Below are positions 235 through 56,250 of a stretch of 56,250 nt of DNA, one piece after another (within the stretch, counting starts at the first letter, position 1; every line of letters begins with the position of its first letter). The DNA is from Parabacteroides sp. PM6-13 (GTDB lineage: Bacteria > Bacteroidota > Bacteroidia > Bacteroidales > Tannerellaceae): the NCBI RefSeq assembly GCF_029892605.1, contig NZ_JARXWF010000018.1:1-56250 (forward strand), read 5' to 3'. The notes below the pieces were generated by a model that saw nothing but the letters and a program-made list of their open reading frames with translations, was not told where the DNA came from and did not search any database. The translations under genes were made by a program, and so were the position numbers.

Positions 235-266
235 CAAAGGTAAATGTGATTTGACAAATTGTCAAA
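235..266 (-). promoter_or_regulatory. Bacteroidetes-type promoter of the 1-184 lipoprotein gene
   Basis: On the minus strand a TTTG (266-263) is followed after 20 nt by TACCTTTG (242-235), matching the -33/-7 consensus. The -33 box is one arm of the 17-nt palindrome that opens dispersed repeat copy 1, so repeat and promoter overlap. Confidence 0.6.
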
Positions 267-381
267 AACGCGGGAGTATTTTTCCAAAAACGTAGGGGTA
301 TTTAAAATTAGTCCCGCGAGTAACACTTTTTAACGTATCATATTGTAAGGCAAAAGGGCGGTTTTGCTTACATTTTGTATT
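242..381 (+). repeat. Dispersed structured repeat, copy 1 of 3
   Basis: About 130-140 nt shared with 30352-30482 and 49803-49942, all in the same orientation. It opens with the perfect palindrome TTTGACAAATTGTCAAA (250-266). A first hairpin follows whose arms are CGCGGGAGTA (269-278) and TAGTCCCGCG (309-318), 9 of 10 paired. The central block (277-354) is almost invariant between copies. It closes with a second hairpin, TGTAAGGCAAAA pairing with TTTTGCTTACA. No long ORF is shared between the copies. Confidence 0.9.
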
Positions 382-394
382 TGGGTGTTTTTGG

Positions 395-30325: not shown

Positions 30326-30351
30326 TCGTTTTGCTTTACACCTTCACTAAG

Positions 30352-30482
30352 TGAATTTGACAATTTGTCAAAATCGCCCGACTATTTTTCCAAAAACATA
30401 GGGGTATTTAAAATTAGTCAGGCGAGTAACACTTTTTAACGTATCATATTGTAAAGCAAAATCGACTTTTTGCTTACAAAAT
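30352..30482 (+). repeat. Dispersed structured repeat, copy 2 of 3
   Basis: Same order as copy 1: palindrome TTTGACAATTTGTCAAA (30356-30372), first hairpin arms CGCCCGACTA and TAGTCAGGCG (9 of 10 paired), near-invariant core, and second hairpin TGTAAAGCAAAA with TTTTTGCTTACA. The stem bases differ from copy 1 but mostly keep pairing. It lies between the susC-like gene and murF. Confidence 0.9.
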
Positions 30483-30677
30483 GATAATCGAAGATAGCCC
30501 CTCGTTTATCCGTTTTTTTGCCTGTCAAATCCGAAATGGCTATCAGCTGCATAATACCCAAGAATACCTCAGCAAGACACAGCTTAACGCTCGCCCGACA
30601 TTCCGTCAGACGAGCCCGCGTTATGGTAAGATTTTTTCTTCTAAATAAGCCGAAGAGCGGAGAGAAGAGAAAAAGGC
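30483..30677. other. Unassigned spacer before the murF terminator
   Basis: About 195 nt with no convincing ORF, promoter or repeat. An imperfect GCTCGCCCGACATTCC and GTCAGACGAGCCCGC foldback is visible near 30590-30617. Confidence 0.3.
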
Positions 30678-44755: not shown

Positions 44756-44771
44756 AACTCCGAAAGGAGTT
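44756..44771. repeat. REP palindrome, left inner copy
   Basis: AACTCCGAAAGGAGTT: 6-bp stem with a GAAA loop, touching the transposase stop codon. Confidence 0.8.
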
Positions 44772-45226
44772 CAACTATCCACCCAAAACCATTTTTCATC
44801 CAGATCCACCCCTTCTTCTTTAAAGAAACGCCTGATTTCCTCCTGAAAACTCTCTCGCTTATGATGCTCCTGTTGGTTTTTGATGTAGTCAATAAGAGTG
44901 TTTCGCTCTTTGTATGAATAGGTCAAGGCACAATACTTTATGCCCCAACCATCAAAACCTGGGAAGAGGCCTGATTCCTTCATCCACTTGCCAGAGGACA
45001 CCTTTATCTCTCTAATATAATCAGCCAAAGCGACTGAAGGGTGCAGGTCAGATAGAATATGAAGATGATCTTCCATGCCATTAATACGGAATAAAACACA
45101 TTTTTTGTTTTTGATAATACCCCAAATGTAGTTGTATAAATCAACTACATGTTTTTGGTTTATACTCTTTCGGCTTCCTTTCGTGCGGAAAACGATATGA
45201 TATAATATTTGTCGGTAGGCAGACAT
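44771..45226 (-). CDS. REP-associated tyrosine transposase (IS200-like Y1 HUH)
   Basis: A 151-aa single-strand transposase of the Y1 HUH family. The HUH motif is His54-Leu-His56 in MEDHLHIL. The catalytic Tyr is likely Tyr114 in LIDYIKNQQEHH. The length suits IS200/RAYT TnpA proteins. Unlike an ordinary IS200, it is flanked by REP-type palindromes in inverted orientation, and no TnpB follows. Catalytic residues look intact, so it could still act on REP DNA. Confidence 0.9.
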   Translation of the reverse strand: MSAYRQILYHIVFRTKGSRKSINQKHVVDLYNYIWGIIKNKKCVLFRINGMEDHLHILSDLHPSVALADYIREIKVSSGKWMKESGLFPGFDGWGIKYCALTYSYKERNTLIDYIKNQQEHHKRESFQEEIRRFFKEEGVDLDEKWFWVDS

Positions 45227-49719: not shown

Positions 49720-49802
49720 GTTTTCGTTTTTTAGGTGTTTTACATCGGGTAAATGTAAGCAAAAACTGACAGATTACAAATTGGAAATCTTCGAATTGGG
49801 GA

Positions 49803-49942
49803 AAATGTAAATTTACAAATTGTCAAAATCGCACGACTATTTTTCCAAAAACGTGGGGGTATTTAAAATTAGTCCCGCGAGTAACACTTTTTAACGTATC
49901 ATATTGTAAAGCAAAATCCACTTTTTGCTTACACTTTGTATT
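49803..49942 (+). repeat. Dispersed structured repeat, copy 3 of 3
   Basis: Starts with a palindrome lacking one base (TTTACAAATTGTCAAA, 49812-49827). The first hairpin has arms CGCACGACTA and TAGTCCCGCG (8 of 10 paired). The core is nearly identical to copies 1 and 2, and the final hairpin is TGTAAAGCAAAA with TTTTTGCTTACA. It lies between divergent HIT and TtcA-like genes. Confidence 0.9.
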
Positions 49943-49987
49943 TTAATAATTCAGAGCGCGTGGTGCGAAAACAAACAGGAAAATCGC

Positions 49988-50017: not shown

Positions 50018-50773
50018 ATGGCAAAGGAAACGACGGAAGAACGCCTTGTGCGCAAGATAGACGCAAAGCTTATCAAGGCCATACGTACCTATGGACTTAT
50101 CAACGACGGCGACCGCATCTTGGTGGGGTTATCGGGCGGGAAGGACTCATTGGCGCTGGTCGAACTATTGGGCAGACGTTCTAAGATATTCAGTCCCCGG
50201 TTCACGGTGGTGGTAGCCCATGTGGTGATGGAAAATATTCCGTACGCCTCGGATATCGACTATCTGCGCTCTGTGGCTGAGGCACATGACCTTCCTTTTA
50301 TCGTGCACCGCACCTCGTTCGATCCTTCGACCGACAAACGCAAATCGCCCTGTTTTCTCTGTTCCTGGATGCGCCGCAAGGCCTTGTTCGACATAGCCAA
50401 AAAGGAGAAATGCAACAAGATAGCTCTGGGACATCACCAGGACGACCTATTGGAAACGCTTTTGATGAATATGACGCATCAGGGAGCGATTGCCACCATG
50501 CCTCCCCTACTCCGGATGGAGAAATTCCCCATGGATATTATCCGCCCCTTATGCTTGATTACAGAAAAAGAACTGATCGCCCTGGCGGCCGACCGGGCAT
50601 ACCGGAAACAGACGAAGAACTGCCCGTACGAAACCACGTCCAGCCGCTCCGACTTCAAAGAGATACTAAAACGCCTCGAGGAAATCAACCCCGAGGCGCG
50701 TTATAGTCTTTGGAAAAGCATGCATCATATCCAGCCGGATTACTTGCCGGCGCCTACGGCTTCGACTTTATAG
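50018..50773 (+). CDS. TtcA-like tRNA 2-thiolation / ATP-pyrophosphatase
   Basis: A 251-aa PP-loop enzyme related to TtcA, which makes 2-thiocytidine at tRNA position 32. SGGKDS (39-44) is the PP-loop. CFLC (Cys112, Cys115) with the later NCPYE Cys gives the three cysteines that bind a 4Fe-4S cluster. GHHQDDLLETLLMN is the family's conserved segment. I chose ATG 50018 (MAKETTEER), as the upstream frame runs through repeat copy 3. The 3' end overlaps the convergent TraB-family gene by 34 nt. Confidence 0.87.
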   Translation: MAKETTEERLVRKIDAKLIKAIRTYGLINDGDRILVGLSGGKDSLALVELLGRRSKIFSPRFTVVVAHVVMENIPYASDIDYLRSVAEAHDLPFIVHRTSFDPSTDKRKSPCFLCSWMRRKALFDIAKKEKCNKIALGHHQDDLLETLLMNMTHQGAIATMPPLLRMEKFPMDIIRPLCLITEKELIALAADRAYRKQTKNCPYETTSSRSDFKEILKRLEEINPEARYSLWKSMHHIQPDYLPAPTASTL

Positions 50774-55851: not shown

Positions 55852-55860
55852 CAGATTAAA

Positions 55861-55970
<110 letters not shown>

Positions 55971-56033
55971 ATGCCTTTTAATGGTTAATGGTTAATTACC
56001 ATACACACATTGTAGTATAACATCTTGGACTCA

Positions 56034-56060
56034 ATAAAGTAAACTGTTTCGCTTTACTTC
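56034..56060 (-). other. Processing-type hairpin in the 23S-5S spacer
   Basis: AAAGTAAA (56036-56043) pairs with the CTTTACTT region (56051-56058) around a short loop. Likely involved in folding or processing of the pre-rRNA. Confidence 0.4.
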
Positions 56061-56089
56061 CATAAAAAGTATATAAACCTATATCAGAA

Positions 56090-56250
56090 AAGTCACGGGC
56101 TATTAGTAACGCTCGGCTACATACATTACTGCACTTACACCTGCGTCCTATCAAAGTCGTAGTCTACAACAACCCTTAAGGGAGATCTAATCTTGAGGCT
56201 GGCTTCGTACTTAGATGCTTTCAGCACTTATCCAATCCGAACGTAGATAC
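56090..56250 (-). rRNA. rrl: 23S ribosomal RNA, partial (3' end)
   Basis: The plus strand is the antisense of the 23S 3' end: the minus strand reads GTATCTACGTTCGGATTGG (56250 side), GCATCTAAGTACGAAGCC, CTCAAGATTAGATCTCCC and GAGCGTTACTAATAGCCCG. It continues beyond the window. The 3' terminus is approximate. Confidence 0.95.

Follow-up and report, generated by a model that had tools for sequence, protein, structure and literature searches.

Three copies of one repeat

What kind of element recurs three times in this stretch of a Parabacteroides sp. PM6-13 contig, and is it kept as a folded RNA, as DNA bound by a protein, or as DNA that moves? The window, i.e., the whole stretch analysed (56,250 nucleotides), had been described from its letters alone as holding three copies of a structured repeat at 242–381, 30352–30482, and 49803–49942, and direct reading confirmed them at these positions, all on the + strand. 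A repeat search without prior bias returned one three-copy family in the window (239–382, 30345–30488, and 49800–49943), with copies 2 and 3 showing 80% and 88% identity to copy 1, respectively. The parts ascribed to the copies were also found, namely a palindrome (TTTGACAAATTGTCAAA), two 10-nt arms, a near-identical core, and a second inverted repeat, GTAA(A/G)GCAAAA...TTTTGCTTAC in the window copies. The claimed pairing of the arms was likewise recovered, copies 1 and 2 having 9 standard pairs each and copy 3 having 8. The window copies have no long ORF inside and, as had been claimed, none encloses a transposase-like ORF. The features read in the window are the following:

250..267, +: left end palindrome of copy 1, TTTGACAAATTGTCAAAA, read from the sequence
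269..290, +: 22-bp unit 1 of copy 1, CGCGGGAGTA TTTTTCCAAAAA, whose first 10 nt are the left stem arm of the sequence-only reading
291..312, +: 22-bp unit 2 of copy 1, CGTAGGGGTATTTAAAATTAGT, which varies least among the units in the PM6-13 genome
313..334, +: 22-bp unit 3 of copy 1, CCCGCGAGTAACACTTTTTAAC, running into the tail
322..345, +: conserved tail of copy 1, AACACTTTTTAACGTATCATATTG, with few changes in the strains PFB2-10 and PF5-6
345..371, +: second inverted repeat of copy 1, GTAAGGCAAAA...TTTTGCTTAC
30356..30485, +: copy 2, with units from about 30375, 30397, and 30419 and the tail at 30428–30451
49813..49942, +: copy 3, with units from about 49830, 49852, and 49874 and the tail at 49883–49906
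44771..45226, −: IS200-like Y1 transposase gene (Pfam Y1_Tnp, E 2e-20)

Copy 3 is flanked by two ORFs that diverge, one with a HIT domain (−) and one of the PP-loop family, whose start is at 50018 (+). Near copy 1, two long imperfect inverted repeats were noted, at 513–555/667–709 (43 nt, 93%) and 745–809/916–980 (65 nt, 78%), which are another MITE-like palindrome. At its end, the contig carries a 5S rRNA gene and part of a 23S rRNA gene (55859–56250, −).

Family size and taxonomic range

The PM6-13 genome was searched in full (4,036,338 bases, 4.04 Mb, in 39 contigs). Allowing up to three mismatches, a core pattern matched 85 places, and a tail pattern matched 94, versus 0 for the reversed-pattern control in each case; therefore, the repeat seen three times in the window is far beyond chance. 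The union of both patterns gives 99 copies, three of them in the window, and the 40 best copies are 89–100% identical to copy 3.

A BLAST search with copy 3 matched three of the 60 nearest genomes, all of the same genus and PM6-13 included. In this genus, the tail pattern counted 73 copies in Parabacteroides sp. PFB2-10 (G004) and six in G001, which is probably Parabacteroides sp. PF5-6, and none in G002 and G003. An exact 24-mer found 33 stretches among the GTDB genome contigs, where records of PM6-13 itself may be left out, with 32 from PFB2-10 and one from PF5-6, and an HMM scan of raw PFB2-10 sequence (1.19 Mb) gave 84 element hits.

In the search of the family, the tail pattern with up to three mismatches was present in 8 of 123 genomes. 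Seven tail loci from other genera were read; six, all from the genus labelled g14, showed the same plan with different letters, and the plan was absent from the other (L144). The g14 plan consists of the left end TATCAAAATGTCA, units such as GTATAGCGACTAATTGGGATTA, and the tail TAATATTTTTTAAC, and a TATCAAAATGTCA-like left end recurs among the aligned g14 copies (loci L404 and L397 were left out of alignment A4). A pattern derived from g14 was run on 28 chosen genomes and matched nine of them, all among the 26 from g14 (control 0), with no match in the single genomes of g11 and g15. A sequence model built from 28 g14 copies found at least 73, 48, 16, and 12 copies in genomes G084, G086, G087, and G081, respectively, these being lower bounds as 150 of the 1498–2520 candidates per genome were scored. 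Across 393 genomes of the order, a similar pattern gave, besides PM6-13, 16 single matches, at or below the reversed-control level. Carriage by plasmids, phages, or viruses was considered and rejected, as BLAST of copy 3 against plasmid and phage collections and two exact patterns run on viral contigs gave no match.

A phased array of 22-bp units

The copies in the PM6-13 genome follow a common plan: an end palindrome (TTTGACAwwTTGTCAAAA), three 22-bp units, the tail AACACTTTTTAACGTATCATATTG, which overlaps unit 3, and the inverted repeat GTAAAGCAAAA...TTTTGCTTAC. The element comes in a trimmed form of about 130 bp, with TTTGACA/TGTCAAA-like ends and approximate limits, and a longer form of about 180 bp, with a AATGTTAA-like left end and TTAACATTT at the right. 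The distance from left to right end was 61 in 51 of 53 left-end hits. In PFB2-10, 38 of 73 copies are of an A form, similar to that of PM6-13, and 35 of a B form, most of the latter with the longer outline (~180 bp) and the right end TTAACATTT. Copies of G001 are built from CTATATATAG-type units and have four of them per array, versus three elsewhere.

When each set was compared with itself at lags from 8 to 39, lag 22 was the best in all five sets (85 copies from PM6-13; 36 A and 37 B copies from PFB2-10, split by a stricter rule than the one giving 38 and 35; 6 from G001; and 20 of 30 loci from g14, the remaining ones being on the other strand). In G001, the centres of the dyads follow each other at 11 bp, as some do in the other sets. 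As 22 bp corresponds to two helical turns, we infer from the letters that the units look like an array of putative binding sites that a protein would reach from a single side of the helix. Such phased arrays, with the 11-bp dyad spacing of G001 and the strong conservation of core and tail, also speak for the main rival to a mobile element, namely a host-owned array bound by a nucleoid or regulatory protein and kept by selection, in which close arrays would be redundant and one of them lost, leaving a minimum distance between those that stay.

Other arrays were noted in PFB2-10. At L269 (~13.9–14.7 kb), a variant has similar ends, at a distance of 174 and not 61, and carries GACAGTACTGTC palindromes at its centre, again about 22 bp apart. 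Near 11.9 kb of L264, at the site of PM6-13 copy L012, there is a GACAATTGTC-type palindrome array with a spacing of about 22 bp.

Stems and the possibility of a structured RNA

The arm changes between the window copies had been taken as compensated and as a sign of selection on structure. This claim failed on an alignment of 80 of the 99 PM6-13 copies (A2), drawn from 85 tail-matched copies in the fetched loci after omission of the divergent L065, L067, L089, L090, and L232. In the first stem, 70.1% of the cells formed standard pairs, versus 68.2 ± 0.8% after shuffling the 3' letters, and 7 of 500 shuffles reached the observed value; five pairs had any double change, versus 4.3 in the shuffles, and the covariation score was reached by 4 of 500. 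This weak excess is of a size that relatedness alone can give, according to the warning of the tool itself. The first stem pairs better than slid versions of it, as an ancestral inverted repeat would. In its commonest arm combinations, one or two positions stay mismatched; of the combinations listed, those of the subfamily with the right arm TACCCGCAGG have 4–7 of 10 positions paired. RNAalifold gave −1.8 kcal/mol for the 80 copies, leaving out the first stem and with 0 of 9 pairs compensated. The second stem, with 92.9% of its cells paired, is near invariant and had no two-sided changes. For the left end palindrome, pairing was 0.736 versus 0.694 when shuffled, the highest of 500 shuffles being 0.718 (this test and the listing of arm combinations also omit the truncated L231).

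A family of structured regulatory RNAs would account for the two inverted repeats in every copy, and it draws some support from the slight surplus of pairing in the first stem and from the B-type copies of PFB2-10, 32 of which (alignment A1, 32 of 35, with L198, L199, and L212 left out) keep a double change in 4 of 26 predicted pairs. Against it stand the lack of any compensated pair among the 80 PM6-13 copies, the tail stem without double changes, and a search of the window against Rfam, in which rRNA gave the only matches at gathering score. A many-copy alignment without compensation, which the sequence-only reading had named as evidence against itself, is thus largely what was obtained as far as RNA is concerned; we consider this explanation most improbable, and it was dropped.

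Intergenic sites, gain, and loss

By a crude ORF caller, 83 of 85 PM6-13 copies lie outside ORFs, and the 61 copies with both neighbours called sit between divergent (26), tandem (28), or convergent (7) genes. A second crude caller placed 76 of 97 hits in gaps, and 28 of 28 g14 loci were intergenic; therefore, the copies are mostly, perhaps always, intergenic. Regarding orientation, nine of ten copies are on the + strand in the first 400 kb of contig C1, the PFB2-10 contigs are mixed, and no rule was apparent along the replichore or with GC skew, as judged by eye. In three g14 genomes (L406, L411, and L412), the element lies just upstream of the start of one and the same ORF (MAISFYAEDIELP...), which we take to be YbeY-like.

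The 1.19 Mb fetched from PFB2-10 contained both flanks for eight of the 85 PM6-13 copies, and seven of these sites were aligned (L067 was left out). The element was absent at the PFB2-10 counterparts of L012, L017, L025, L080, and L096, and an element of the PFB2-10 type was present at those of L030 and L097. Only L017 and L080 resemble single gains or losses, because the alleles at L012, L025, and L096 differ by several hundred bases and other repeats. Conversely, 3 of 84 PFB2-10 hits could be placed on fetched PM6-13 stretches: for elements 42 and 70, the PM6-13 site was empty, and the third site was the shared L097. Altogether, seven of nine distinct sites aligned between both species are not shared. 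A check for empty sites and target-site duplications, proposed from the window, thus gave a positive answer for the former and no clear duplication in the alignments. Matching of the flanking proteins on both sides gave six sites (L028, L036, L043, L050, L070, and L097) at which the element is found in both species. At those shared sites that were read, the core version is specific to the species, suggestive of later homogenisation or replacement.

These sites weigh on the host-owned array in both directions. The six sites occupied in PM6-13 as well as in PFB2-10 and, for three genomes of g14 (L406, L411, and L412), the position upstream of one ORF start agree with it, while the seven of nine aligned sites not common to both species, and copy numbers that vary within the genus from 0 by pattern (G002 and G003) to 84 hits in 1.19 Mb (PFB2-10), argue against it.

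Short, non-coding, and dispersed in many copies (99 copies of ~130–180 bp), the element shares these features with MITEs, and we file it as a MITE-like intergenic repeat. The copy number, the mostly intergenic sites, the empty sites in the sister species, and the 22-bp array all support a MITE-like or protein-bound element. Hence, this part of the interpretation first drawn from the window is supported, and the part that invoked selection on a folded structure is not.

A minimum distance between copies

The copies keep apart from each other. In PM6-13, none of the 76 gaps within contigs is shorter than 7 kb, versus 13.6 expected (0 of 5000 simulations as low), and three are shorter than 12 kb, versus 22 expected. 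In PFB2-10, a single gap below 4 kb was found among 77 loci, versus 14.1 expected (0 of 1000 as low), once hits within 1 kb had been merged; the only closer hits are two tail-only fragments, which have no 22-bp units and whose distances to full copies are 34 and 68 bp. The g14 tests covered G084, G086, and G087. In G084, which is a single contig, 0 of 72 gaps are shorter than 7 kb, versus 7.4 expected (P 0.0002), and none is shorter than 10 kb, versus 10.3 expected (0 of 5000 as low), and in G086, 0 of 44 gaps are shorter than 7 kb, versus 3.9 expected (P 0.008); G087, with 15 gaps, holds too few copies for a verdict either way. Expectations for PFB2-10 come from sites drawn at random in the gaps between ORFs, and those for PM6-13, G084, G086, and G087 from uniform placement over intergenic and genic DNA alike. 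The limits of 4 and 7 kb were chosen after the first lists had been seen, and that of 7 kb was reused unchanged on G084 and G086. Other repeat families of PFB2-10 (3–11 loci each) were too rare to serve as a spacing control.

Copies are enriched at contig ends in PM6-13, with 9 of 99 at 800 bp or less from an end, versus 1.0 expected, so the assembly breaks at some of them; we cannot see how such breaks would leave an empty zone of several kb in the interior of contigs.

Spacing over longer distances differs among genomes. It is evener than random in PFB2-10 and PM6-13 (CV 0.41–0.68 and 0.60, versus 0.84–0.94), as a host-owned array would have it, and random in G084 (CV 0.99 versus 0.98), where the large gaps are as irregular as chance and do not point to any rule of coverage. 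The common feature is therefore a minimum distance and not an even grid. Taking all its evidence together, the host-owned array is the main rival, and we regard it as possible but rather doubtful.

Another way to a minimum distance would be an ordinary MITE without immunity, with later recombination between copies removing the close pairs. The copies are indeed alike enough to recombine, as shown by the 40 best ones, and the gain and loss between species agrees with it. However, deletion would take direct pairs only, and inverted pairs are missing too, below 3.4 kb in PFB2-10, 7 kb in PM6-13, and 10 kb in G084, while neighbours at 3.5–20 kb occur in both direct and inverted order. The absence of both kinds of close pairs is evidence against a spacing that comes from recombinational deletion alone, and we hold this explanation to be unlikely.

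Search for a moving enzyme

The minimum distance, found in PM6-13, PFB2-10, G084, and G086, is a feature of target-immune transposons, for which a transposase was looked for. A scan of 1.65 Mb (1.19 Mb of PFB2-10, about a third of that genome, and 0.46 Mb of PM6-13, about a ninth) revealed neither an autonomous long copy with separated ends nor a transposase bracketed by copies. In the copy-rich PFB2-10, there was no match to the integrase core (rve, PF00665) and no full-length IstB, so these searches left no candidate for a partner of the IS21, Mu, or Tn7 type. PM6-13 has one IS21-like pair, which was rejected as the source, since the best E value of the element model across L315, L349, L316, L348, and L350 was 0.66.

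Y1 genes are present in five of five genomes of the genus, one of them in the window, and three of the eight Y1 loci of the two species (L335, L336, and L340) have an element at a distance of up to about 1.3 kb, versus about 1.1 expected by chance as reckoned from the densities. Both facts would fit REP/REPIN sequences moved by a RAYT (Y1) transposase, an explanation that we weighed together with ends of known insertion sequences. Nevertheless, at these three loci, the Y1 genes are bracketed by palindromic repeats of their own, from three different REP-like families, and the element stands on one side only, which led us to reject it as the REP that brackets a RAYT gene. The flanks read around the Y1 gene of the window hold no array either and, as above, no transposase was bracketed in the 1.65 Mb scanned. 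A RAYT-driven origin, or one from known insertion sequence ends, is thus very unlikely.

Comparison with known systems

The closest known system is the BrickBuilt MITE of Porphyromonas gingivalis, an intergenic element in which a 23-nt minisatellite separates a leader from a tail, with 1 to 22.8 copies of the unit, lengths of 84–991 nt, 19 loci, and 12-nt terminal inverted repeats of the IS5 type, GAGACCTTTGCA (PMC4596501). Both are intergenic, non-coding, dispersed, and lineage-restricted elements of Bacteroidales, whose leader and tail enclose tandem units that each span about two helical turns, and both show gain and loss, between strains in the case of BrickBuilt (PMC4596501). They differ in the unit (22 bp versus 23 nt) and its number (three, or four in G001, versus a variable one), as well as in the larger copy number and the minimum distance found here. 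In a pattern search, the 12-nt IS5-type repeat was found in 0/85, 0/73, and 0/6 copies (0/164). The copies are therefore not members of BrickBuilt, because they have no BrickBuilt end, a period of 22 bp, and a near-fixed number of units.

Regarding spacing, the cis-immunity of Mu in vivo is strongest at about 5 kb from its ends and weakens over the range from 5 to 25 kb (PMC7350765). The avoidance of several kb around a resident element is similar to the target immunity of Mu, Tn7, and Tn3 as treated there (PMC7350765); unlike these, which are autonomous, the elements described here have 130–180 bp, with no transposase or helper ATPase detected. With REP, BIME, and REPIN sequences, they share the nature of high-copy, extragenic, palindromic DNA, yet REPs are described as palindromes of 20–40 bp, and the Y1 genes that we read have other repeats around them. 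The open-access literature yielded no account of the element described, nor of MITEs that keep a minimum distance, and the word "immunity" does not occur in one review (PMC10969869).

A tentative model and its meaning

We tentatively favour, at a little less than an even chance, short non-coding and non-autonomous mobile DNA elements that carry a putative protein-binding array and spread with target immunity. These elements belong to the Parabacteroides lineage and would be moved in trans by a transposase system, for which the 22-bp array would be the binding site. Such a system, if endowed with target immunity, would refuse targets at up to several kb from a resident array; target immunity gives an exclusion zone, and a minimum distance is the trace expected of transposition under it. 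At shared sites, core versions may later have been homogenised or replaced within each species.

In a broader sense, it is possible, and we propose it with some reserve, that an undescribed system of transposition or chromosome binding reads the 22-bp array and enforces a spacing of several kb in two genera of gut Bacteroidales. The sequence of the array would be swapped between species while its period and tail stay, so that the recognition protein and its sites may co-evolve.

High-copy intergenic repeats are usually catalogued by their sequence, and the present case indicates that their placement carries a mechanistic signal as well. If the exclusion is due to target immunity, these non-coding elements would bear an immunity footprint at the scale of the genome, with an unknown transposase behind it; in the case of selection, they would represent a spaced chromosome-binding site in gut bacteria.
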